From Woeseiaceae bacterium (GTDB lineage: Bacteria > Pseudomonadota > Gammaproteobacteria > Steroidobacterales > Woeseiaceae), in the NCBI GenBank assembly GCA_030065915.1, contig JASJCQ010000001.1:124001-188000 (forward strand): a stretch of DNA of 64,000 nt. The letters are read 5' to 3'. The position numbers were made by a program, and so were the translations under genes. The notes under the pieces are model-generated. The model saw nothing but the letters and a program-made list of their open reading frames with translations. It was not told the DNA's origin and did no database searches. Positions 3,801 to 62,510 of the stretch are shown here, in pieces (the first letter of the stretch is position 1; the number at the start of each line of letters is the position of its first letter).

Positions 3801-4283
3801 ATGAAGGGCGACGAAGACGTCATCAAGCACCTGAACACGGTCCTCAAGAATGAGCTGACCGCAATCAATCAGTATTTCCTGCACTCACGCATGCTTAAGG
3901 ATTGGGGACTCCACAAGCTTGGCGACTACGAGTACGGGGAATCGATCGATGAAATGAAACACGCCGATGTGCTCATCGAGCGCATTCTTTTTCTGGAGGG
4001 CCTGCCCAATCTGCAGGACCTGGGTAGACTTCGTATCGGCGAAGATGTGCTCGAGATACTGAAAGCCGATCTCGCGATGGAAAATGACGCTATACCCGAC
4101 TTGAGGGACGGAATAGCGCACTGCGACAAGGTTCGTGACTACGTGACGCGCGAGATTTTCGAGCGCATCCTGGAATCCGAGGAAGAGCATGTGGACTTCC
4201 TTGAGACCCAGCTGAGCCTGATCGACAAGATCGGCATTCAGAACTACCAGCAGACTCAGATTGGAGATGGTGCGGCAGGCTGA
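3801..4283 (+). CDS. bfr: bacterioferritin
   Basis: Heme-containing iron-storage protein, 160 residues, the standard length for a 24-mer subunit. All ferroxidase-centre ligands are present at canonical positions: Glu18, Glu51, His54, Glu94, Glu127 and His130. Met52, the inter-subunit heme ligand, is also present (ESIDEMKH), so this is a heme-binding BfrB-type subunit rather than a ferritin. It acts in the cytoplasm, oxidising Fe(II) and storing the mineral core. It follows bfd, its electron donor partner, and is preceded by its own Fur box and followed by a strong intrinsic terminator. It has no evident functional link to the surrounding matrix genes. Confidence 0.95.
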
Positions 4284-4673: not shown

Positions 4674-5405
4674 CTATCCAACTCTGCGGCGGCGCGCGAG
4701 TCCCAGTCCTGCCAGACCAGACAGCAGCAAAATAGCGGCGCCCGGTGTTGGAACGGAGATCTTTATCGAACCAATGGCGAAACCGCTGGGTTCGTCTTTT
4801 CCGGTGCCGGTCGCGACAATCCTGAAGACCGTCCCGAACAATCCTCCGAATATCATATCGTCCGTGGCCTCGTCCGATCCGAAGATCGATCCGAGATCGA
4901 CCATTACGCCGTCAATGTACAGTTCGAACGAGCCGCAAGGCCCTTCTGTAGTATTTGCATTGACGCAGTCTCTGTCGTTACCTGCGTTGAAGTCGATGCT
5001 CAGGAGTTCGACGATTCTGCCAAAGTCGAACAAGACAAATTCGCCTTCATCGGCTTGAACCTGGTCATCTCGGCCGGCTTCACCAGGAGAGACTACGGCA
5101 AGGCCGGAATTTCTCGGCCAAAGGTCCTGCATGAGCAGACCGTCGCCGTCACTGTTGTTGCCGGTTACGGTAACCGACTGGCCATCAACCGTATAGGTCA
5201 GACCACTACCGGTTTCGCAGATGTCGGTACTGGAGATGTTAACGCCGTTACATGTGTTTGTGACGTTGAAATCGACGCCGTCGGTGCCATCGGGCGTGAC
5301 TGCGCCAGGATTTTCGAACTGGAAATAGATTTCGTCTGCAGTTACAGCGCCGGCGAGGGTCAAACTGATAACCCCAACTGCAGTTTTCAAAATTCGGCGT
5401 TTCAT
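4674..5405 (-). CDS. PEP-CTERM sorting domain protein
   Basis: Secreted protein of 243 residues with an N-terminal signal peptide (MKRRILKTAVGVISLTLAGA, cleavage near VTA-DE). The C-terminal tripartite sorting signal is VPTPG, a hydrophobic segment (AAILLLSGLAGLGLA) and a basic tail RRRRVG. This is the exosortase target architecture, so XrtA is expected to process it. The motif is P-T-P rather than the commoner P-E-P. The mature region is acidic, with several Cys and many Asn, Gly and Asp, and has no domain I recognise; a beta-rich Ca-binding or adhesive surface protein is plausible but unproven. A consensus sigma-54 promoter lies 56-74 bp upstream of the start, and a terminator follows the gene, so it is probably monocistronic. 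Confidence 0.88.
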   Translation of the reverse strand: MKRRILKTAVGVISLTLAGAVTADEIYFQFENPGAVTPDGTDGVDFNVTNTCNGVNISSTDICETGSGLTYTVDGQSVTVTGNNSDGDGLLMQDLWPRNSGLAVVSPGEAGRDDQVQADEGEFVLFDFGRIVELLSIDFNAGNDRDCVNANTTEGPCGSFELYIDGVMVDLGSIFGSDEATDDMIFGGLFGTVFRIVATGTGKDEPSGFAIGSIKISVPTPGAAILLLSGLAGLGLARRRRVG

Positions 5406-5782: not shown

Positions 5783-5824
5783 CGATAGCAAGTGAAACGT
5801 CTGCTAAACGGAATTCAAGACATC

Positions 5825-6553
5825 ATGAACATAATGGACTATGGCAAGATCAGCGCCACATTGGGCGCCTTTATGCTGGCAGCGACTGCAGCTGCAGACC
5901 CGATTGTCATCGACTACCTCGGTGACGGCGTCAGCGATGACGGTGGCAACGTCGGCGGCTATTCGATGACGGACATCGACCAACAGGCCAATACCGATCC
6001 GGGAAATACAACTGACGATGTCAGCTGCATCAATTCGACCGGCGTCACCGGCACCGTCTCTGCCAACGGTTCAAGCGGCAATATCTGCTTCCAGGGCCAG
6101 GGCGGAACGCTGTCCGACATTGACATCATCGACAACCCGATCAGAAACGGAACGGCATGGTGGCAGTTCCCCACTCAGGGTAACGTCTACGTAACCAACA
6201 AGAACTGGATAGAGATCCTCCTGCCGGAAAACACGTTTGCGGTGTCACTTTGGGTTGGCGCCTCCTTCAACGGAAGCGCATGGATCGGCGCCTACAACAC
6301 TGACGGCGATTACGTTCAGACCGCACCGAACTTCAGTGTTGGCCCGGGCAAGACAAAGGGTTATGGCGTCTACGCGGGCGACAGCTGTTCGGCGCTGACC
6401 AAGATCATCGTCGAACCCAAAGACTGGGGATTCGGCAACCTGTCCATCAGCCAGGGGTCTTGTGTATCGGTCCCGGAACCCGGTCCGTTAGTCCTCTTGC
6501 TGCTCGGAATGCTTGGCATCGCGGTCAATCGTCGATACAGCCGAACCGCTTAG
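5825..6553 (+). CDS. PEP-CTERM sorting domain protein
   Basis: Secreted protein of about 242 residues. A signal peptide (ISATLGAFMLAATAAA, cleaved before DP) precedes a Gly/Asp/Asn-rich mature part. The C-terminus has the canonical sorting signal VPEPG, a hydrophobic stretch (LVLLLLGMLGIAV) and a basic end NRRYSRTA. It should be processed by XrtA, encoded near 62 kb. I recognise no catalytic domain. The only Cys residues are about two pairs that could form disulfides after export. The predicted sigma-54 transcription start is near 5792, so ATG 5825 is preferred to the in-frame GTG at 5792. The gene is divergent from the other PEP-CTERM gene and ends at its own terminator. Confidence 0.88.
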   Translation: MNIMDYGKISATLGAFMLAATAAADPIVIDYLGDGVSDDGGNVGGYSMTDIDQQANTDPGNTTDDVSCINSTGVTGTVSANGSSGNICFQGQGGTLSDIDIIDNPIRNGTAWWQFPTQGNVYVTNKNWIEILLPENTFAVSLWVGASFNGSAWIGAYNTDGDYVQTAPNFSVGPGKTKGYGVYAGDSCSALTKIIVEPKDWGFGNLSISQGSCVSVPEPGPLVLLLLGMLGIAVNRRYSRTA

Positions 6554-6844: not shown

Positions 6845-6860
6845 TGTGAACTGTTTCACA
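6845..6860. promoter_or_regulatory. CRP/Vfr-like palindrome (TGTGA-N6-TCACA)
   Basis: TGTGAACTGTTTCACA is a perfect half-site palindrome with 6-base spacing, the CRP/Vfr consensus architecture. It lies about 460 bp upstream of the riboswitch-controlled lipoprotein gene. A nearly identical site (TGTGAACTGCGTCACA) occurs at 62652. Confidence 0.6.
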
Positions 6861-6983
6861 AATTTGAGAATTGAAACATTGCAGCTTGTTCGAAGGCTCG
6901 CGACTCCAAATCGCAGAAAATGAACGGCTTTGGGCTGCTTCTCAGCTTGAATCTGAAACTATGTAAACTGGAAACGCCATTTT

Positions 6984-6999
6984 TGTGAGCTAAGTCACG
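6984..6999. promoter_or_regulatory. second CRP/Vfr-like palindrome upstream of the riboswitch gene
   Basis: TGTGAGCTAAGTCACG has the same TGTGA-N6-TCAC architecture, 139 bp downstream of the first site. A CATAAT hexamer at 7054-7059 could be the -10 of an activated promoter. The promoter itself is uncertain. Confidence 0.5.
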
Positions 7000-7130
7000 A
7001 AGGTAGTTGCACTCGTTGTCTTATTCGAATCCCTCCTCCCGGATCTCGTACAACATAATTTCCCTGTCGCCGATTTGAGACAGCTTCTAAAAGCTGGACC
7101 AGATGCTATTGTCACCTCCAGTGATGTTCA

Positions 7131-7147
7131 ACGCTTGGATCAAGCGT
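7131..7147. repeat. 7-bp inverted repeat just before the riboswitch
   Basis: ACGCTTG, GAT, CAAGCGT is a perfect inverted repeat immediately upstream of the riboswitch aptamer. It could be an operator or a small leader hairpin; no protein can be assigned. Confidence 0.4.
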
Positions 7148-7156
7148 AAGTAAATA

Positions 7157-7250
7157 CAATCAGGGCAAACCATCCGAAAGGTTGGGACGCAAAGCCACCG
7201 GTCTAAATGTGCCGTCTGACGCACATACGATAGCGGGGTTGCAAACCAGA
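7157..7250 (+). ncRNA. cyclic-di-GMP-I (GEMM-I) riboswitch
   Basis: The aptamer core is clear: AGGGCAAACC, a P2 hairpin closed by a CCGAAAGG GNRA loop, then GGGACGCAAAGCCACCGG. A P3 stem follows (TGTGC paired with GCACA), and the 3' part AGCGGGGTTGC completes the fold. These are the defining conserved elements of Vc2-type class I c-di-GMP aptamers. It sits about 55 bases before the TTG start of a surface lipoprotein gene with an AAGGA ribosome site at 7292. There is no obvious intrinsic terminator in between, so translational control is more likely than attenuation. A short CCTT/AAGG pairing could mask the ribosome site. Confidence 0.93.
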
Positions 7251-7305
7251 TCAGTCGTCCACCGTTCGCGTGCTTGCCTTCTTTATCAGACAAGGACGTG
7301 GTGCA

Positions 7306-9540
7306 TTGACTACTTCACTCCGTACGACAAGAAAAGCTCAGTGGCTTCTCGTAGCCCTATGCGCGTCGACGTTATCAGGGTGTCTATCCGAGAAGGACCA
7401 GGGCGACGATCCCGACGGTTCGCGAATTGTTCAGAACAACATCGGCGGCAGTGTCGGGGATGGACCGCTTGTCGGCGCCACGATACTGATTAGCTCCTCA
7501 TCGGGTGACCAGTTGGCGGAACTGGTGAGCGATAGCACCGCTGACTATTCGACAACAGTGACGACGGCGGTCGGCAACTATCCGCTTCGAATCATGGCTA
7601 CCGGAGGCACGGACCTCGTGACGTCCACTGGGCCTGATTTCGATCTCCTCGGTGCAGTACCCTCTTCTGGTTTCGAAACAACCGCGAACGTTAATCCGTT
7701 CTCCACGCTCGCCGTGTTGATCGCAGAAGAGGCCGGTACGTTCACCGCCAGCGGCCTTTCAGCAGCCGAGGCGACGGTCTCGAACGAACTCGGCTTCGGG
7801 CTGTCGTCGTTGGCAATATCGGGACCAATGAGCACGGCGGTGGATGCGTCGAACGTCTCCGAACTCGTACGCGCTTCCGAAGGTCTTGGCGAACTCATTC
7901 GACGAGTCAGAGACGTGATGCTGGCCGCCGGTTACAACATCGACGGAGACTACGCGGCGCGACTACTGGCGGCGGATCTTGTGGACGGCGAATTAGACGG
8001 TGTGGGTAGTAGCCTGGTCGACAGGCGAACCTCGGCGATTGCCGTCCTGGCCCAGTCTCAAATCGCCTTGGAATTGATGTCGAATGAGCTACACGTGAAC
8101 GGCAGCAACGCAACGAATTTAATGCGTTCAGCGATCATCCAGATACTGCCGGGCGAGCCGAGTGTCGATCTCGCTGACCTTACCGCAACGGACGGACTGC
8201 TCCGCCAGGCGACCCGGGGATTATCTGCAGCGGCGGCAATGTCTGATGATCCTGCTATCGATGATCTGTTGAACGACGCGCAGAACATTCAGATCGGCAT
8301 GGACGCTTCCGACACGATCCGAGTCCTGCCCGGCGACTACCGTTTTCGACTCGACACATTTATGCGCCAGGTCGCGGAAGGCGGCACAGACCTGGCTGAC
8401 CGTGTTCTGGCTGGAGGCTCAGACAACACACCGGGCCCTGGTAACAACGCTCCAAGCATTTCCGGATCGCCGGCTTCGTCGGTAGTGATCGGAAACGCGT
8501 ACACCTTCGTGCCGCTGGCCTCCGATGCCGACGGTGATCCGCTGACTTTCTCCGTGACCGGACTACCCTCCTGGGCCATCTTCGACTCGAACTCTGGCGC
8601 CCTGAACGGCGTCCCCACCGCTGTGGATGTTGGTGTGTACGCGAACATCAGGATCAGCGTCAGCGACGGTCAGCAATCGAGCTCACTCCCGGCGTTCTCG
8701 ATTCAGGTGTTTGGCGATAATTCAACGCCAGTCATCAGTGGAACACCAGCAAGCCGGGTCGCCGCGAACAACGCCTACAACTTCGTTCCGACTGCGTCGG
8801 ACCCCGACGGCGACGCATTGACGTTCTCCGTCGCAGGTCTGCCGGGCTGGGCCGGTTTTAATCCAGCGAATGGCGCGCTCAACGGCACTCCTGGTGTCGG
8901 CGACATTGGACTTTACACAGGCATTACGATCTCCGTGTCTGACGGTAACCAGAGCGCCGCATTGCCCGCGTTCTCGATTGAAGTGATCGCCACGAACACT
9001 GCGCCGAGCATAACCGGGTCTGCACGGGGTTCGGTTGTGGTTCAGGACCAATACAGTTTCATTCCGACTGCTTCCGACCCGGATGGAGATGCCCTGGTGT
9101 TTTCAATCTCGGGACTTCCCTCCTGGGCGAGCTTCAATACATCGACTGGCGCTCTGACCGGCACTCCCGATAGCGGAGACGTCGGCGTCTATTCCAACAT
9201 CGTCATCAGCGTATCCGACGGCTCACTGAGTCAGTCCCTGGCCCCATTCTCGATCGAGGTTGTGGCCCAGGGAGCTGCGACCGGGTCGGCCACGCTGACA
9301 TGGGTCGCGCCGACGGTGAACGAGGACGGTTCAGAACTGACCGACCTGGTAGGTTTTCGGATTTATTGGGGTACTACGCCGGGTAACTATACGAATTCGG
9401 TAGCTGTAGACGGTGCAGATACGACGTCGACAGTGATCAATGGGCTGGTGCCCGGCACCTACGAGTTCGTCGCCACAGCGGTGAACAGCAGCGGCCTCGA
9501 AAGCGCGTTTTCCGGGACGGCAACGAAGACGATCAATTAG
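7306..9540 (+). CDS. c-di-GMP riboswitch-controlled surface lipoprotein with Ig-like and FN3 domains
   Basis: Large lipoprotein (about 744 residues). A hydrophobic signal (WLLVALCASTLSGC) ends in a lipobox with the acylated Cys near residue 26. An N-terminal region of unknown function (about residues 40-380) starts with a carboxypeptidase-regulatory-like segment (VGDGPLVGATI). Three tandem putative Ig (He_PIG/cadherin-like) repeats of about 90 residues follow, each with a D-x-DGD-x-LTFS core and GLPSWA-type turn. A C-terminal fibronectin-III-like domain (TLTWVAPTVNEDG...GTYEFVATAVN) ends the protein. Such repeats occur in adhesins and matrix-binding proteins. TTG 7306 is chosen because AAGGA lies 9 bases upstream and it gives a proper signal peptide; GTG 7270 is possible. 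A shorter paralogue lies convergently at 9595-10290. Confidence 0.85.
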   Translation: MTTSLRTTRKAQWLLVALCASTLSGCLSEKDQGDDPDGSRIVQNNIGGSVGDGPLVGATILISSSSGDQLAELVSDSTADYSTTVTTAVGNYPLRIMATGGTDLVTSTGPDFDLLGAVPSSGFETTANVNPFSTLAVLIAEEAGTFTASGLSAAEATVSNELGFGLSSLAISGPMSTAVDASNVSELVRASEGLGELIRRVRDVMLAAGYNIDGDYAARLLAADLVDGELDGVGSSLVDRRTSAIAVLAQSQIALELMSNELHVNGSNATNLMRSAIIQILPGEPSVDLADLTATDGLLRQATRGLSAAAAMSDDPAIDDLLNDAQNIQIGMDASDTIRVLPGDYRFRLDTFMRQVAEGGTDLADRVLAGGSDNTPGPGNNAPSISGSPASSVVIGNAYTFVPLASDADGDPLTFSVTGLPSWAIFDSNSGALNGVPTAVDVGVYANIRISVSDGQQSSSLPAFSIQVFGDNSTPVISGTPASRVAANNAYNFVPTASDPDGDALTFSVAGLPGWAGFNPANGALNGTPGVGDIGLYTGITISVSDGNQSAALPAFSIEVIATNTAPSITGSARGSVVVQDQYSFIPTASDPDGDALVFSISGLPSWASFNTSTGALTGTPDSGDVGVYSNIVISVSDGSLSQSLAPFSIEVVAQGAATGSATLTWVAPTVNEDGSELTDLVGFRIYWGTTPGNYTNSVAVDGADTTSTVINGLVPGTYEFVATAVNSSGLESAFSGTATKTIN
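9301..9332 (+). repeat. 32-bp perfect inverted repeat, left copy (FN3-coding)
   Basis: This stretch, coding for WVAPTVNEDGS in the FN3 domain, is identical to the reverse complement of 9803-9834. It is the most conserved part of a larger paralogous region shared by the two convergent lipoprotein genes. Confidence 0.85.
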
Positions 9541-9594
9541 CTTCGCACAGCTCGTCCATGGACCAGGAGATGTCGACTTCCAGTGAATCCGGGG

Positions 9595-10290
9595 TTAAGG
9601 AATGATTTTCGTTGCAGGTGAAGAGAACGCACTCTCGATACCAGCCTCATTAAACGCCGTGGCGACGAACTCGTATTCACCAGAAGGAAGATCGCTGATA
9701 ACGACCGTCGTAGCACCTGGGTCGTCCAGGGTCACGCTGTTTGTAAAGCCTCCGGGACGTCGTCCGTAGTAGACGCGGAAGCCCGCAAGGTCAGTCAGTG
9801 CAGAACCGTCCTCGTTCACCGTCGGCGCGACCCAGGTTAGCGTGGCCGAACCAGTCGCCGCGCCCTGCGCAATCACTTCAATCGAAAATGAGGGGAGCGT
9901 TGCGCTGAGGGAGCCATCGCTTACGCGGACGGATATACCTGAGTAGACTCCGACGTCTCCCGGGCCCGGCACGCCGCTGATGAGCCCGCTGCTGGAATCA
10001 AACTCGGCCCAGCTCGGCAGGCCCGAGACAGAGAAGGTAAGCGCATCGCCATCGGGGTCTGTGGCCGTAGGCGTGAAGACGAATGCTCGCTCAACGGACA
10101 CCGATCCCGGCGGATTTCCGGAAATCGTCGGAGCAGAGTTAGCCGGTGACGGTGTGCCGGCAGGCAAGCTGGATTGATTGCTGCCTCCGTCAGAACCGGA
10201 GGATTCTTTGGACAGACAGCCCGCCATGCCCAACATAACCGGCAAAAACAGCAGCACTCGGAAGGTGTTGATAATCGGTCTAGCAGTCAT
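9595..10290 (-). CDS. second riboswitch-controlled lipoprotein, short paralogue (Ig-like + FN3)
   Basis: Lipoprotein of about 231 residues. The signal segment VLLFLPVMLGMAGC provides the lipobox, followed by a Ser/Gly-rich linker, one He_PIG-type Ig-like repeat (SAPTISGNPPGSVSVE...DPDGDALTFSVSGLPSWAEF) and one FN3-like domain nearly identical to that of the 7306-9540 protein. The longer open frame to 10422 is rejected because it would translate through the riboswitch; the start is the ATG at 10290 (MTARPIINTF). It looks like a one-repeat version of its neighbour, arising by inverted duplication or repeat expansion. Function is unknown; a surface or matrix-attachment protein induced or repressed by c-di-GMP is the simplest reading. 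Confidence 0.83.
   Translation of the reverse strand: MTARPIINTFRVLLFLPVMLGMAGCLSKESSGSDGGSNQSSLPAGTPSPANSAPTISGNPPGSVSVERAFVFTPTATDPDGDALTFSVSGLPSWAEFDSSSGLISGVPGPGDVGVYSGISVRVSDGSLSATLPSFSIEVIAQGAATGSATLTWVAPTVNEDGSALTDLAGFRVYYGRRPGGFTNSVTLDDPGATTVVISDLPSGEYEFVATAFNEAGIESAFSSPATKIIP
9803..9834 (-). repeat. 32-bp perfect inverted repeat, right copy (FN3-coding)
   Basis: Reverse complement of 9301-9332. It lies in the FN3 domain of the minus-strand lipoprotein gene. Confidence 0.85.
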
Positions 10291-10349
10291 TACGAAATTT
10301 TCTCGTGCCTGCCGGGCAACCGACCGTCGAATCAGACGATAACGTTCGT

Positions 10350-10427
10350 ACTTTGCAGCTCCGCTATCACAGAAGGTGACCGGAAGCTTTGCGTCCCATC
10401 CTTGCGGAAGGTATGCCCTCAAGCAGA
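10350..10427 (-). ncRNA. cyclic-di-GMP-I (GEMM-I) riboswitch, second copy
   Basis: On the minus strand the conserved core reads GAGGGCATACC, a P2 hairpin with a CCGCAAGG GNRA loop, GGGACGCAAAGCTTCCGG, a short P3 stem (GTCAC paired with GTGAT) and AGCGGAGCTGC. This is a class I c-di-GMP aptamer with a shorter P3 than the first copy. It ends about 60 bases before the ATG of the short lipoprotein gene. A GAAAATTTC palindrome overlaps the ribosome-binding region, which suggests translational control. Confidence 0.9.
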
Positions 10428-11327
10428 ATTAACGTGGATTAGCGCCCTACACGGACCGCCTCTCTTAATCGAAATTAACCATAACATGCTGAAATTTCTT
10501 TGAAACCTGTCTCAATGTTGCGACAAAGATCTACCGTCGGCTGTTTTCGTTTGCCTTGTAGTGACTTATCACCAGAGCCACAACTGGAATAGCAACTACA
10601 GAGGAAAAGTGACTGAAAATATTGAAGAAAGCGTCGAAAATCGCCTGCTCGGCGCCAAAAACTTTTGTTTCATGATGTTTCGGGGCCGTATTTCTTCGAT
10701 TCTGAAAGCAAACCGAGCAGTCCCAGGCGAATGCCTGGCTCCGGACACGCTTTGTCGACGACAGAACTTAGCGCCCGAATTCACCGGCCAGCCTGCGTCC
10801 GGATACGACCAACGGGCGTGCGGCTCCAATCACCGTAGGGACACACGTACTGGCGTTATTGGGACAGGCCTGGACAGGACCGGACTGTGCGTCGAAACGA
10901 TACATACATAGCGTTTGCGTAGACTAGCGCAGCCACAAGAAGATCTCATACCGTGGGAATCGGCAGTCGTTCTACACGCCTGGCCTGGCCTGCTGGTATT
11001 CGGCACAAACGGGTCGGCTACGGTACGGCGCCCCGACGGAAATCAATTGGCGCTCCTCGCGAATCCCAAGGTAATCCGCTCTGCCTCCATTCCACCTGGA
11101 GCCACTGCTTTGCTTAGGCTGCCGTTAAGCATCACAATGGCGCAATCAGCGAGTCCGAGAAAGCGACCTCGTTCAGGATCTGCGGCATCTCGCATACAGG
11201 CTATTGTGGTGTGAACCGCACGAACCAGAGCAAGAAAGTCACCCTTATCCCGGGTGGCGTTCAACGTGAGAGACAAGCCGGACCTGTTTGATATGGCGCT
11301 GCAATTAGAGACAAGGATTGCGAATTC
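10428..11327. other. 900-bp region without a supportable gene
   Basis: The part next to the riboswitch (10428-10560) is AT-richer and probably carries the promoter of the minus-strand lipoprotein transcript. Short open frames occur on both strands at 10561-11276, but none has a recognisable family, a convincing ribosome site and a convincing start. A minus-strand frame at 11043-11276 has coding-like composition and may be a remnant. Confidence 0.4.
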
Positions 11328-15076: not shown

Positions 15077-15152
15077 TGGCGTCCCCAAGGGGATTCGAAC
15101 CCCTGTTACCGCCGTGAAAGGGCGGTGTCCTAGGCCTCTAGACGATGGGGAC
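15077..15152 (-). tRNA. tRNA-Glu (TTC)
   Basis: The minus-strand sequence begins GTCCCCATCGTCTAGAGGCC, has anticodon TTC in CCCTTTCACGG, T-arm GGTTCGAATCC and an encoded GCCA 3' end. It is nearly identical to enterobacterial tRNA-Glu and 76 nt long. Confidence 0.97.
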
Positions 15153-15174
15153 ATAGGACTCTTACCGTAAGACT

Positions 15175-15250
<76 letters not shown>

Positions 15251-15364: not shown

Positions 15365-16780
15365 TTACGAATTCGCGCTCGCAGCCCGTGCCTCGATGAT
15401 CTCTATTGCGTTGTCGAGCCGCTCAAGAACCCTTTCCTGCCCTATCAACCATAACGTCACGTCGATGGGTGGTGAAACGGGACCACCGGTCACCGCCACG
15501 CGTAAAGGCTGGCCGAGCTTGCCCATGTTGATATCGAAGTCAGCGGCGACCTCGACGATTGCCTCGTGTATCGCTGTCTGCCCCCAGTGCTCCAGCTCGG
15601 CCAGGCGTCGACGCGCAACTATTAGAGGCTCGAGAATAACGGGCCGCAGGTGCTTCTTCGCCGATTTCTCGTCGATGACATCAAAATCCTCGTAGCAGTA
15701 CCGAGCACTGGCGGCCATGTGCAGCAACGTGTCGGCCCGTTCGTGGTAGCCTTCAGCGATATGCTCTGGGTCGGGGCCGTCCGCGGGTTCCAGGCCAGCC
15801 TTGATCAGGTACGGCATGAGCCGTTCACCCAGTCGATCTGCGGGCATCGCGATCATGTGCTGTTGGTTGATCCACAGCAGCTTTTCAGGATTGAAAGACG
15901 ATGCCGAGTGGTTGACGTCCTTGATGTCGAACAACTCGATCATCTGCTCGACGGAGAAGATTTCCTGGTCACCGTGCGACCAGCCCAACCGCACGAGATA
16001 ATTCAACATAGCCTCGGGCAGGTAGCCCTCCTCCTCATACTCTCGTATGTCAACGGCGCCATGGCGTTTCGACAGCTTGGCTCCGTCCGGCCCCAGGATC
16101 ATCGGCAAATGTGCGTATTTCGGCGGTTCGGCGCCAAGCGCAGCCAGCATGTTCATCTGTCGCGGAGTGTTATTGAGGTGGTCGTCCCCACGAATCACAT
16201 GCGTGATTCGCATGTCATAGTCGTCGACGATAACCGAGAAATTGTACGTGGGCGACCCATCCGATCTTGCGATGATCAGGTCATCCAGTTGCTCATTCTG
16301 GAAAACGACACGCCCCCTGACGGCATCGTCAACGATGACCTCACCTTCCAGTGGGTTCTTGAAGCGGATGACAGGGTCGACACCCTCTCGCGGCTCCGTC
16401 TTGTCTCTCCACCGACCGTCATAGCGTACTCGCTCACCTGCCGCCATCTGCGCCTCGCGAAGTGCATCGAGTTCTTCTTTCGTGCAATAGCAGTAGTAGG
16501 CCTTGCCGGAATCCAACCAGTCGTCCAGAACCTCCCGGTAGCGCTCGTATCGCTCCGTTTGATAGAAGGGTCCTTCATCCGCGGTGAGCCCGAGCCAGGC
16601 CATGCCCTCGAGAATGGCCTCGACGTTTTCCGGTGTTGATCGCTCGCGATCCGTATCCTCGATTCGAAGAATGAACTGGCCGCCGTGATGACGCGCATAC
16701 AACCAACAGAACAAGGCGGTGCGGACACTTCCAAGGTGCAGAACGCCGGTAGGGCTCGGAGCAAAGCGGGTTCGAACCAT
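15365..16780 (-). CDS. gltX: glutamate-tRNA ligase
   Basis: Class I aminoacyl-tRNA synthetase charging tRNA-Glu, 471 residues, the usual bacterial length. The signature begins [20 protein letters not shown], where HLGS is the HIGH motif (near residues 15-18). The KMSKS loop appears as KLSKRHG (near 240). The C-terminal anticodon-binding domain is complete. A run of T follows the stop codon on the minus strand and may mark the end of the transcript before the tRNA promoter. The gene directly precedes the tRNA operon containing its own substrate tRNA-Glu, a simple synteny rather than a regulatory claim. Confidence 0.96.
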
Positions 16781-58141: not shown

Positions 58142-60949
58142 CTATCCCTCAATCTCTGCCAGCAGGGCTTTTGCGTTATTGCGTTCGTCGAAGTCGTCCT
58201 CAACGTCGAGCAACGGCCGCAGAATATCGAGGCTGTCGGATGTGCGCCCAACCCGGTGCAAGACGTAAGCCAGATGATACTGAATGTTCCCGGAACGCGG
58301 TGACTTCTCGGCAGCCTCCTCAATGAGAACCAGGGCCTCCTCGAGATTGCCTTGTTTAACGAGGATCCATCCTAGCGTGTCGGCCACTGAGCCAATGTCC
58401 GGACGCAGCGTGTATGCTTTCCGCGCCAGCGGCTCAGCCTTGTCACTATCCCCCGATTCATTGTAAATCCACGCCAGGTTGTTCAACGCTGGCACGTTGT
58501 CGGGATCGCCGGCAAGCACCCTTTCATACAACGCGATCGCCTCCGCGGATACTCCGAGGCGGTCGTTCTCCTGCGCAAGGAAAAGAGCTGTCGTGGCGTC
58601 GTCCGGGTTCTCCGCCAGCCAGGCTTCCAGGGTTGCGGCGGCTCCATCACGCCCTGCCGAACGCGCCGCCTGAAATGCTCGAAGCGCCAGAACCGCAGAC
58701 GGCGAAACGTCGAATGCGTCGTTGTACAGATCGGCCGCTCTTGCAAAATCCTGCCCGGCAAAATAGATGTCGGCCTCAAGATTGATGGGTGTTGCGGACT
58801 CGGGGTAAAGCGACTTCAGATCAGCTGCGATCTCGAGCGCCGCATCGGTGTTGCCGGCACCCATTTCGATTAGTGCCAACGTCGCCCTTGAACGCAAGTC
58901 GTTCGGATCGATTTCAAGCGCTTTGCCAAGCGCCCGTCTAGCGTCCTCAGACTGACCGAGAGACAGGTGGGCCTGGGACAGCCTATACCAGGCGTTGATC
59001 GACCCCGGACTCAATTCTGTTGCTGCGTTCAAATACGGCAGGGCTTCGCGGCCTTTACCGACCGAGACCAGTATGTCGCCCACACCCAGTTGAATCGTCG
59101 CATTTCCTTCCGCCAGGCGCGCTGCTTCCTGCGCCGTTTGCTCGGCGCGCAGCCGATTGCCCTGACGCAGGTAAGACTTCGCCAGCATCAGCTGTGGCAG
59201 CGCAGCGTTGTCGCTGGCTTCGATGGCCTGCAGCAAGAGCTGCTGGCTCTTCTCGAAATCGCCATCGACTGCCGCGTAGTTCGCGAGACTGGTCAGGGCG
59301 GTCAGGTTGCCCGGGTCGAGCTTCAATACAGCGTCGAATGCGGCGATGGAAGCATCAGCGTCGCCGGAACCGGCCGCAACCCGCCCGACGCCGATACGCG
59401 CCGGAACATGGTTCTCGTCGATGGCTAGCGCCTCGGTGAAGCGTTGCTGCGCCTTGTCGAGGATACCCCGGCGTAGATAGATGTCACCAATCAGCGTCAA
59501 CGCCCGTACATCGTCGCTGAAATCCTCGGCGATCTGGTCAATGCGTGCCTCCGCCTCGTCGCTTCTATCGGACGCGATCAGTGCCAGCGCGATGACGAGA
59601 TCCTTCCCGAAACTGTCGGCATCGTCGGGTAAGGATTCGGCCAACGCGACGGCCTCCTCGGATCGCTGTGCCTGCAAATATGCAGCGGCCAGCGACAACC
59701 TGAGCTCCGTGTTTTCAGGCTCTTTCTCCACGGCCTCTTCGAGCAGGCGAACTGCTCGCTCTACTGAACCTGTCCGTATCAATGCGTTGCTCGCAAACAC
59801 TGTGAGCTGAGCATCGCGCTCAGTCGATTCGAGCAAAGGGCTAATCGTCTCGACAGCGGCACGCGGTTCGGCCATCTGCACTTGTGCTGCGGCCAGCAGA
59901 CGGCGAGCTGCGAGATTCTGCGGCGCACGTGCTACGACCTGGCTCAGTGCGCCTTCGGCAGTCACGTAGTTCTCGAGTGCAACCTGTACGGAGCCGTACA
60001 GGAACAATGCGGACAGGTTATTTGGCGAGACCGACAGTACCTGCTCGAGCTCATTCGCTGCCAGTTCGTAGTCTTCGCGAGCGGCTGCGAGACGTCCGCG
60101 CAGGAAGCGGGTCATCGGCGTCTGGCCGGCAATGTTGCCCAATGCACGGATCGTCTGTTCGGCCTCGTCAAGCTTGCCCTGTGACAACTGCGCGTCCGCA
60201 AGCCCCGACACCGCCGGCAATTCAACGATGCGGCTGGGCTCCGCACGTGCCGTCTCTGCTGCACGTCGAAGCGCTTCTTCCGCCGCTTCCAGCTTGCCGG
60301 CACGAAGGTCGACCACACCACGCAGCAACCAACCGGGCGAATAGTCGGAATGTTCGCTGGCGAGGCGATCCAGATAGACTCGCCCCTCATCGACCCGACC
60401 CTGAGCTACAAAGGCGCCGGCCATCCCCCAGAGAGCCTTGGGAGAATCGGGCGCGATGGCAAGCGCTTCGCCGAACACCTCCTCAGCCTGGAGCGAACTG
60501 CCGAGTCCCAGCAGCGCTTCACCGCGGAATAGAATCGCCTGCAGGTCAGAGATGCCTTCCAGACCAGAGGGCTCCGACAAGAGCTCTAAAACGCCAGCAA
60601 AGTTACCAACGGCGAGCTGGACCTCGTAGTACAACGCCATGTGCTCGGCCGCATCGGCACCCAAGTCCTGCGCGCGCCTCAATTCCTTCTCCGCGGACAG
60701 CGGATCCGCGAAGGCCAGAGACACCTTTGCCAGCAGCAGGCGGCCGTCGACGTTGTCCGGCGCATCCTGCAGCAGATTCTTGAGCGTTACTACCGCTGTT
60801 GCGTAGTCCTTCTCAGCAATCTGTTCACGAGCATCGGCCATTTGCTCCTCGGGCGACTTGCTGCAAGCAGACAGCAGCAGCACCGAACAGCCGAGCAGGC
60901 ACCATTGAAACAGTTTGCCCTGGCGTGGTCTGGATACTGCCTTGTTCAT
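58142..60949 (-). CDS. prsT: PEP-CTERM system TPR lipoprotein PrsT
   Basis: Protein of 935 residues. The lipobox VLLLSAC near residue 29 is followed by more than 20 tetratricopeptide-like repeats of 34 residues covering nearly all the protein. PrsT proteins are large TPR lipoproteins found with exosortase A and PrsK/PrsR. They probably scaffold components of secretion or assembly in the periplasm. ATG 60949 (MNKAVSRPRQGK) is preferred, with GGGAG nine bases upstream, so the frame to 61003 is too long. It is 22 bp downstream of xrtA. Confidence 0.93.
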   Translation of the reverse strand: MNKAVSRPRQGKLFQWCLLGCSVLLLSACSKSPEEQMADAREQIAEKDYATAVVTLKNLLQDAPDNVDGRLLLAKVSLAFADPLSAEKELRRAQDLGADAAEHMALYYEVQLAVGNFAGVLELLSEPSGLEGISDLQAILFRGEALLGLGSSLQAEEVFGEALAIAPDSPKALWGMAGAFVAQGRVDEGRVYLDRLASEHSDYSPGWLLRGVVDLRAGKLEAAEEALRRAAETARAEPSRIVELPAVSGLADAQLSQGKLDEAEQTIRALGNIAGQTPMTRFLRGRLAAAREDYELAANELEQVLSVSPNNLSALFLYGSVQVALENYVTAEGALSQVVARAPQNLAARRLLAAAQVQMAEPRAAVETISPLLESTERDAQLTVFASNALIRTGSVERAVRLLEEAVEKEPENTELRLSLAAAYLQAQRSEEAVALAESLPDDADSFGKDLVIALALIASDRSDEAEARIDQIAEDFSDDVRALTLIGDIYLRRGILDKAQQRFTEALAIDENHVPARIGVGRVAAGSGDADASIAAFDAVLKLDPGNLTALTSLANYAAVDGDFEKSQQLLLQAIEASDNAALPQLMLAKSYLRQGNRLRAEQTAQEAARLAEGNATIQLGVGDILVSVGKGREALPYLNAATELSPGSINAWYRLSQAHLSLGQSEDARRALGKALEIDPNDLRSRATLALIEMGAGNTDAALEIAADLKSLYPESATPINLEADIYFAGQDFARAADLYNDAFDVSPSAVLALRAFQAARSAGRDGAAATLEAWLAENPDDATTALFLAQENDRLGVSAEAIALYERVLAGDPDNVPALNNLAWIYNESGDSDKAEPLARKAYTLRPDIGSVADTLGWILVKQGNLEEALVLIEEAAEKSPRSGNIQYHLAYVLHRVGRTSDSLDILRPLLDVEDDFDERNNAKALLAEIEG

Positions 60950-60971
60950 TTGTCTGTTCTCCCTGTCCTGC

Positions 60972-62510
60972 TCATTTCGGCCCCGGCGTCGGCAGCGCTC
61001 CAATCAGAGACCTGTTGATTGCCGGAAACTCTTCTGACAGCAAGGTTCTCGCTTCGTTGCAGTCTCGAATCTCGCATACGGTACTAACGGCAATTGATCC
61101 CGATTGCTCGGCGCCGACCAGTGCCAGAAGACCAAGCCGTAGCTGGGTCTCCACCCCCTTGGATCGGCTCTCGCCGTCGACCAGGAAGTGATACCAGATC
61201 AGGCGACGAACACCCGTAGGATAGTCCGCCATTATCTCATGGATTTCCAGCGGCTCGCCGCTTGTTATCGTGCCAATTGCTGCAGCCGGTTTGTCATAAG
61301 ACACCCGGGCGTTCTTACCGGCGAGAGACGTGTAATAGCCGATGAGTTCGCGTCCCTGTGATTGCGTCTCATACCAGTTCACGTACACGTCCAGTTTGCG
61401 CCCATCCCTGCTGTAGCGGGCCTGCGCTTCACCGTCGGGATCAACGAATTGAGGCTTCCAGTCTTCCCGTTCTGCCGCGACTGGGAGCCAACCCTCGATA
61501 GATGGCAATTGAATCGCGACATCAGCCGTATCGTTGGTCAAGAGCCGGGCCCAGACCAGAACCGGCAGAGCAAGCAGTACACAAGCGTAGCCCGCAGGTG
61601 CAAGTCGAGATTTCCCGAACTTTCGTGGCGAATCGGCATGTTGGCTTTCTGCCGGCAAATCGGGCTCGAGACGCCGAGCTATGAGAAAGAACGGCACCAG
61701 CATGACCACGAAAAGAACCCAGCCGAACGTATAGTGATCGACCTGCACGAGGTAGGATTGCATGTCGGTCAGGTGACCGGCGACGATGACTACCGTAACT
61801 CTGATCCAGTTTACGGCGATTGACATCGCGGCCGCGATCGCGAGCAGCGCGACGGAATCTCTCGCGCGAACATAGTTTAAGTGGCCATAGACCGTCGCTA
61901 GCGTCAGTGCCACGATGAAGAAGTGAATACCGCTACAGCCGCCGGCGATTTCGAAGACACCCGCCGGAATCTGGACGAAATTGCCCTCGATAAATGCTGG
62001 CACGCCAATCGCTTTGAGGATCACCGATACGGCGGCGGTTGTCATGGATTGCAGCAACGGATTTATGACATCCCAGACCGGTATCGCAGAATAGAGCAGT
62101 AGCACAGGGACCAGGATGCGTGCGACCGTTTGCCAGCCTGAAACGGATAAGACCGCGCATATCAGTATCAGTGGCCACAGCACCGTGGCGCCGAGTGCGA
62201 TGTTGGCGGCGAACGCCCAGATCCAGCCAAAGAGCAGGCCCGCCAGAACGACAAAGGCAGGTATAGATGGCCGCTGCGGGGTAGCAGAGATCGCGTCTCG
62301 TTGTCGATACACGAGCCAGACAACCAGTAGCAAGATCAACACGCCTTGAGAATAGCGGTGACTGTCCGACCACTTGGGCCAGAGCAACATCAGTGTCGGG
62401 CTCAAAGCCAGCATGACGGCGAGTAACGTGCCTGCGACGATCAGCCAATGGCTGACAGCTGCCCGGCCCTCATCCGCAACAGCATTGTTGCCGTTCGATT
62501 GCTTCGTCAT
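60972..62510 (-). CDS. xrtA: exosortase A (XrtA/EpsH) with fused EpsI domain
   Basis: Inner-membrane transpeptidase-like protein of 512 residues that recognises and processes PEP-CTERM signals. The N-terminal half has about eight helices. The catalytic Cys lies in FEIAGGCSGIHFF (near 195), the Arg in AVNWIRVTVVIVAGH (near 238) and the His in VDHYTFGWVLF. The C-terminal part (about 310-510) is an EpsI-type periplasmic domain, a fusion usual for exosortase A. Its likely substrates in this window are the two PEP-CTERM proteins at 4.7-6.6 kb. The gene leads a minus-strand operon with prsT, export lipoprotein, chain-length determinant, kinase and outer-membrane protein. A CRP-like palindrome is about 140 bp upstream. 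Confidence 0.96.
   Translation of the reverse strand: MTKQSNGNNAVADEGRAAVSHWLIVAGTLLAVMLALSPTLMLLWPKWSDSHRYSQGVLILLLVVWLVYRQRDAISATPQRPSIPAFVVLAGLLFGWIWAFAANIALGATVLWPLILICAVLSVSGWQTVARILVPVLLLYSAIPVWDVINPLLQSMTTAAVSVILKAIGVPAFIEGNFVQIPAGVFEIAGGCSGIHFFIVALTLATVYGHLNYVRARDSVALLAIAAAMSIAVNWIRVTVVIVAGHLTDMQSYLVQVDHYTFGWVLFVVMLVPFFLIARRLEPDLPAESQHADSPRKFGKSRLAPAGYACVLLALPVLVWARLLTNDTADVAIQLPSIEGWLPVAAEREDWKPQFVDPDGEAQARYSRDGRKLDVYVNWYETQSQGRELIGYYTSLAGKNARVSYDKPAAAIGTITSGEPLEIHEIMADYPTGVRRLIWYHFLVDGESRSKGVETQLRLGLLALVGAEQSGSIAVSTVCEIRDCNEARTLLSEEFPAINRSLIGALPTPGPK

Follow-up and report, generated by a model that had tools for sequence, protein, structure and literature searches.

Two class I c-di-GMP aptamers face each other across a pair of lipoprotein genes

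We analysed a stretch of 64,000 nucleotides from a Woeseiaceae bacterium (GenBank assembly GCA_030065915.1, contig JASJCQ010000001.1, positions 124,001 to 188,000; hereafter the window, numbered from its first letter), which contains two lipoprotein genes that each follow a predicted aptamer for cyclic di-GMP (c-di-GMP). A first-pass annotation had proposed two class I aptamers with intact cores, each directly ahead of one of two convergent, paralogous lipoprotein genes. A search of the 64-kb window with Rfam cmscan bore this out, as both aptamers matched RF01051 (c-di-GMP-I, or GEMM-I) well above its gathering cut-off of 35 bits, and the only other Rfam matches in the window at gathering cut-offs were two tRNAs. 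The genome as a whole (3.96 Mb) has five c-di-GMP-I matches, the window's two included. The aptamers are oriented inwards, and the stop codons of the two genes lie 54 bp apart:

7154..7246, plus strand: c-di-GMP-I aptamer 1 (cmscan, 76.2 bits, E 3.4e-13)
7306..9540, plus strand: lipoprotein 1 (TTG start, 744 aa), with lipobox LSGC, an N-terminal region without assigned fold, three He_PIG stretches (about 8449-9270) and an FN3-like C-terminus (9271-9537)
9595..10290, minus strand: lipoprotein 2 (231 aa), with lipobox MAGC, one He_PIG stretch and an FN3-like C-terminus (Pfam)
10351..10427, minus strand: c-di-GMP-I aptamer 2 (cmscan, 55.0 bits, E 5.1e-8)

The count of three immunoglobulin (Ig)-like repeats against one was also upheld, with He_PIG (PF05345) scores of 107.6 and 45.7 bits for lipoproteins 1 and 2 (Pfam cut-off 24). 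The C-terminal domains can be called FN3-like only, as fn3 (PF00041) stayed below its Pfam cut-off of 25 in both proteins (21.1 and 21.2 bits), and their description as nearly identical was overstated, since 60 of 89 residues (67%) agree. The Ig repeats of lipoprotein 1 share 52-56 of 90 residues with that of lipoprotein 2. Judged by these identities, the two proteins are clear but not recent paralogues. Their leaders, aptamers included, align with 96 of 133 ungapped bases identical, which is consistent with the duplication of riboswitch and gene as a unit, and a search of the same genome with lipoprotein 2 returned these two genes only. For the N-terminal region of lipoprotein 1, Pfam at a relaxed cut-off gave sub-threshold matches only, and an AlphaFold model of the protein from its single sequence reached a pLDDT of 34.

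Aptamer 2 belongs to a recurrent receptor-less form

We compared the two aptamers in an alignment of 75 sequences from the window, its genome and relatives, for which 80 regions (L-numbers below) had been fetched, 40 of them by RNA match (three from the same genome) and 40 by protein similarity. Positions G20, A47 and C92 (Vc2 numbering), which we take to be the ligand contacts, are all kept in both window aptamers; A47 and C92 are invariant among the 75 and G20 is present in 72. Stem-loops P2 and P3 are likewise present in both, with two and four non-standard-pair marks in the cmscan alignments. The base 3' of C92 is C in 72 of the 75, T in L153 and A in the window's two aptamers only.

Aptamer 1 has a GAAA loop and a tetraloop receptor. 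In the aligned flanks its P1 run extends over no more than 1 bp, the sole such case in the set. P1, which the Rfam model leaves unpaired, and the GAAA tetraloop with its receptor are common peripheral features of this class. Aptamer 2 has a GCAA loop, a short uninterrupted P3 whose outer pairs are retained as AGCU/AGCU (judged by eye), and a P1 formed by a shifted 5-bp run that includes a G-U pair. The first-pass annotation had noted that P3 differs between the two, and so it does, but the nature of the difference is the lack of a tetraloop receptor together with GCAA in place of GAAA. By a pattern-based count the receptor is absent from 13 of the 75 aptamers, 9 of which also lack GAAA; conversely, it is found in 61 of 65 GAAA aptamers and in 1 of 10 others (Fisher 5e-8, in related sequences). 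As loop and receptor co-occur, the P3 difference of aptamer 2 amounts to an absent tertiary contact, and a receptor-less P3 is a recurrent variation in the relatives.

From its sequence, a weaker affinity of aptamer 2 for c-di-GMP is plausible. Different ligand thresholds for the two aptamers, as had been suggested, are plausible too and would fit the missing receptor of one and the missing P1 of the other, but these same features could also mean decay. That aptamer 2 and its leader are a decaying copy, leaving the gene weakly or no longer under c-di-GMP control, seems to us rather unlikely: the absent receptor, the GCAA loop, the change from C to A after C92 and a score of 57.4 bits (71st of 75 in the aptamer-set scoring) would all fit such a copy, yet G20, A47, C92 and the outer pairs of P3 are kept, and the receptor-less form recurs in the relatives as counted above.

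Two other assignments were considered and were rejected or found no support. Specificity of the window pair for cyclic GMP-AMP (cGAMP) would presumably be marked by A at position 20, which we take to be the signature of 3',3'-cGAMP-type GEMM-I aptamers, and position 20 is G in both. Aptamers with A at this position do occur ahead of the same lipoprotein family in relatives (L042:3994-4091 (-), L153:1744-1838 (+) and L158:2134-2229 (+)). The model c-di-GMP-I-GGC (RF03167), which has matches in 72 of 73 genus genomes and, among 20 loci, outscores RF01051 for L150, L157 and the second aptamer of L149, does not appear to mark a separate type here, as the listed places that were compared coincide with RF01051 matches.

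Aptamer and lipoprotein recur together across the genus

Matches to c-di-GMP-I were found in all 37 same-genus genomes (this one included) and in 54 of the 60 genomes examined, with up to 17 per genome. Across the fetched regions and the window, an aptamer lies directly upstream of 40 of the 54 genus genes with a match to the FN3 part, and of 5 of 16 such genes in other families of the order. Two of the 14 genus genes lacking an aptamer (L127 and L160) sit at contig ends, and no fewer than three partial matches in the genus (G083:C3, G066:C117 and G027:C22) were left unfetched. In 20 regions that were added on the basis of protein similarity, 16 of 24 genes have the aptamer upstream; in the other 20 protein-chosen regions, which were selected among genes outside the RNA-chosen regions already covered and include other families, 9 of 24 do. 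The window pair is thus part of a genus-wide pattern of aptamer plus lipoprotein gene.

Copy number, Ig number and orientation of the lipoprotein genes differ among relatives. L045 and L072 have a short and a long gene in tandem with one aptamer each, and L149 and L157 have convergent pairs in which only the short gene carries an aptamer. Tandem aptamers ahead of a single lipoprotein gene occur in five cases (L068, L112, L154, L115 and L120), and in the first three of these one aptamer is canonical and the other receptor-less.

Class I aptamers also precede genes of other kinds. On contig C13 of the same genome, one (L036:4091-4175 (-)) lies between genes that we take from their sequences to be lpxC-like and M23 peptidase-secA-like, near presumed ftsA/ftsZ-like genes, and the M23 type follows 16 of the 23 non-lipoprotein riboswitch leaders of the fetched set. 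Two aptamers with an unusual GGCACAGC core (L038:4055-4153 (-) and L073:4006-4101 (-)) precede genes presumably of a FAD-linked-oxidase-like type.

Leaders of relatives suggest a possible translational OFF switch that uses the aptamer's 5' strand

The leaders of this family in relatives point to a possible mode of action. Start codons were picked by script; L154 was excluded from the leader analyses because the start chosen for it overlapped the aptamer. Leaders of 23 other riboswitches (16 belonging to the M23 type) served as controls, 2 of an original 25 having been dropped for want of a start. Of 40 aptamer-bearing genus genes, 20 have a motif, GGNUUGCY, which we call the anti-core, no more than 75 nt from the start; the number is 19 if L145 is set aside, where the motif is the aptamer's own 3' strand. 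The motif occurs in none of the 14 aptamer-less genus genes and in none of the 23 control leaders. The anti-core is complementary to the 5' ligand-binding strand of the aptamer, GGGCAAACC, and is also able to pair with the Shine-Dalgarno region.

We folded 22 leaders of relatives, selected by eye because they contained the motif or something like it, and nearly all of them gave a start-proximal hairpin that takes in the Shine-Dalgarno region. Its 5' arm is GGNUUGCY, and its 3' arm (GGAGCAAACC and variants) resembles the core strand. In 22 of 44 lipoprotein leaders the predicted duplex with the own core was stronger than in 95% of dinucleotide shuffles, as against 0 of 23 controls (two of which reached 0.055). 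The inner helix of the hairpin is 93.6% paired, compared with at most 44.5% when the arms are slid, and its outer pair 3 is G:C in 8, U:A in 4, C:G in 1 and unpaired in 2 of 15 leaders, in an alignment whose offsets and bulges were selected for best pairing. All 15 share UUGC in the 5' arm, whose third base varies. In L142 the core, the anti-core and the downstream strand have all changed together (GGCAAUCC/GGAUUGCC/GCAAUACC), and the tandem leader L068 contains, by eye, a matching stretch for each of its two cores.

We therefore propose, with a probability of roughly 0.45, that the two class I riboswitches govern the translation of the two Ig/FN3-like lipoproteins as OFF switches that use the 5' strand of the aptamer. 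With no ligand, the 5' ligand-binding strand would pair with the anti-core, which lies a short way ahead of the start codon; this pairing would unfold the aptamer and free the Shine-Dalgarno region, so that the gene is ON. With the aptamer strand held by c-di-GMP, the anti-core would instead pair with the downstream core-like strand that overlaps the Shine-Dalgarno region, and the gene would be OFF. The aptamers, the genes, their homology and their recurrent association in the genus can be read directly from the sequences. The case for the OFF design, as far as sequence can make it, is strongest in about 20 relatives, and both window leaders are diverged forms of it.

Folding gives the proposed OFF switch weak and uneven backing

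The window leaders have the following predicted elements, in which free MFE denotes the unconstrained minimum free energy fold:

7162..7168, plus strand: core strand AGGGCAA of aptamer 1, predicted to pair with 7274-7280 (free MFE)
7274..7280, plus strand: putative anti-core UUGCCUU of leader 1, diverged from GGNUUGCY (free MFE)
7292..7296, plus strand: Shine-Dalgarno-like AAGGA of gene 1, 9 nt ahead of the TTG (from sequence; partly paired in folds)
10307..10321, minus strand: putative anti-core GGUUGCCC plus CAGGC of leader 2, predicted to pair with the core and the P1 5' strand of aptamer 2 (free MFE)
10410..10418, minus strand: core strand GGGCAUACC of aptamer 2, paired with 10314-10321 in the free MFE

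In both window leaders the free MFE thus pairs core with anti-core. For leader 2 this pairing stands out, with a duplex p of 0.005 and a pairing probability of 0.82 that none of 12 shuffles reached, a result that also speaks against the decay of this copy. The fold of leader 2 showed no Shine-Dalgarno half of the hairpin, however, which such decay would explain and which weighs against an OFF switch in this leader; leader 2 seems to have lost that half.

Several further results count against the proposed OFF mechanism. In leader 1 the core pairing probability of 0.69 is not above its shuffles (which reach 0.83) and the duplex p is 0.33. Forcing the aptamer shifted Shine-Dalgarno openness from 0.15 to 0.25 in leader 1 and from 0.08 to 0.03 in leader 2; across the family it cut openness by more than 0.1 in only 14 of 44 leaders and raised it in 3 (Wilcoxon p 0.003). 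Seven of those 14 lack the motif (L123, L063, L045-, L110, L157, L062 and L074), and openness stayed the same in several leaders that do have the motif, for example L146, L149, L061, L068 and one of L045. A core pairing probability above 0.5 was reached by 14 of the 44 leaders and by none of the 23 controls, but also by 80 of 528 shuffles, and the probability is near zero in the motif leaders L149 (741-aa gene), L061, L068, L043, L143, L146 and one L045. The strict motif is missing from 20 of the 40 aptamer-bearing genus genes, both window leaders among them, and from all 5 aptamer-bearing genes of the order's other families. Covariation in the inner helix is weak, with one pair changed on both sides, which 241 of 500 shuffles equalled. 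Where the core is a variant one, anti-cores from other leaders often pair as well as the leader's own (10 of 22 with the L142 core and 13 of 22 with that of window leader 2), and the sequences are related, so that p-values are not independent. Overall, the modelled folds weakly back a translational OFF switch. Given the diverged window leaders and these mixed results, we propose the OFF mechanism for the group and hold it less certain for the window.

The same data can be read differently. These may be ordinary c-di-GMP-I riboswitches with another or a mixed platform, in which the anti-core has no role beyond that of 5' arm in a Shine-Dalgarno hairpin and matches the core as a by-product; we regard this as a tentative but serious alternative. 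It would account for the leaders with GGGUUGCCC, which mismatch the core at one position yet pair with the 3' arm, for L046 and L146, where the 5' arm, including most of the core-matching stretch, is also paired in the hairpin, for the half of the leaders that lack the motif and for the small equilibrium core pairing in several that have it. It sits less well with the above-shuffle pairing of 22 of 44 leaders with their own core against none of the controls, or with the invariance of UUGC, as expected if this segment were also bound to match an invariant aptamer strand. Neither of the latter two points cleanly separates the by-product explanation from the OFF switch. The argument that UUU of L046 and L146 is left unpaired in the hairpin was dropped, as the folded leaders contradict it.

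A transcription-terminator platform is not supported: neither aptamer is separated from its gene by a terminator-like site, and positions 6850-10650 hold 5 such sites compared with 3.3 expected from shuffles. A promoter scan found none.

The surroundings of the locus

Genes flanking the lipoprotein pair on opposite sides recur near the family in relatives:

3801..4283, plus strand: bacterioferritin-like gene, as we take it to be from its sequence (tblastn synteny)
15365..16780, minus strand: gltX-like tRNA synthetase of class I E/Q type (Pfam, synteny), with tRNA genes at 15080-15250 (Rfam)

In the 80 fetched loci, which are short stretches, a bacterioferritin-like gene appears in 11, a gltX-like gene in 8 and both in 2 (L074 and L117). 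The link that had been drawn to a matrix region with XrtA and PrsKR genes is weak, since these genes lie about 50 kb from the locus and the recurring neighbours are the bacterioferritin-like and gltX-like genes. XrtA (60972-62510), PrsT (58142-61003) and a partial PrsK (from 62712 to the window end) were indeed present, but PrsR was absent from the matches of 20 open reading frames (ORFs) searched against NCBIfam and 10 against Pfam, out of 58 ORFs of at least 180 aa. Two candidate PEP-CTERM proteins lie beside the locus, at 4674-5405 (-) and 5792-6553 (+), their motif scoring beneath the Pfam cut-off. With 31 GGDEF matches in the genome, c-di-GMP signalling is plausible; one of these matches (G000:C35:38207-38674) lies about 1.1 kb upstream of another of its c-di-GMP-I aptamers.

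Relation to known c-di-GMP riboswitches

The kind of target is not new: in Geobacter, GEMM riboswitches, which include cGAMP-sensing ones, precede genes for fibronectin type III surface proteins, namely KN400_1971 (PMC13194489) and GSU1945 (PMC10599522), and the arrangement of a GEMM-I aptamer before an FN3 surface-protein gene is alike here in a different organism. In Cd1 (OFF) and pilM (ON), the aptamer-stabilising strand A is the partner of a switching strand T, whose effect is exerted on a terminator (PMC9262584). Competing strands there likewise choose between aptamer and expression platform, and Cd1 is also an OFF switch, whereas the candidate described here would pair with the 5' strand (P), has no terminator-like site and would be of translational design. 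Tandem c-di-GMP riboswitches have been described for Bc3-5 (PMC4759541) and in a survey (PMC12452182); they resemble the present family in placing several switches on one function, and five family genes have tandem aptamers themselves, but each of the window's aptamers belongs to its own gene of the convergent pair, and the two do not share a leader.

Elsewhere, class I switches ahead of surface-protein genes raise expression in response to c-di-GMP: Vc1 upstream of gbpA in Vibrio cholerae, which like ours precedes an attachment gene, activates a different target protein (PMC4744006), and Bc2 is a transcriptional ON switch for another surface adhesin, the collagen adhesin CbpA of Bacillus (PMC7423583). 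By analogy with such adhesins, and with the three leaders in which forcing the aptamer raised Shine-Dalgarno openness, the switches described here might be ON switches as well. We consider this distinctly unlikely, as the core:anti-core pairing and the start-proximal hairpin place the Shine-Dalgarno region in the stem of the bound state and falls in openness outnumber rises.

Compared with the RF01051 type, fold, score and contacts are alike; aptamer 1 departs from it in having no detected P1, aptamer 2 in having no receptor, and both in the proposed use of the 5' core as the switching strand. Among the papers listed in searches of the open-access literature, none was seen to describe this genus' Ig/FN3 lipoproteins or such an anti-core. 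A bolder and, in our view, improbable extension of the OFF mechanism is a lineage of c-di-GMP-I riboswitches that would join a 5'-strand anti-core to a core mimic fused with the Shine-Dalgarno region, act as translational OFF switches, and pair canonical with receptor-less aptamers in one locus or leader so as to extend the response across different ligand levels.

If the OFF mechanism is right, it would provide a rule, readable from sequence, for how a group of c-di-GMP-I riboswitches acts in an uncharacterised genus, and it would identify a family of surface proteins in that genus as a direct target of c-di-GMP control. Natural variants for compensation tests would be available in L142 and the tandem leader L068, and the natural pairs of full and receptor-less aptamers would suit the question of how tertiary contacts set the ligand threshold.

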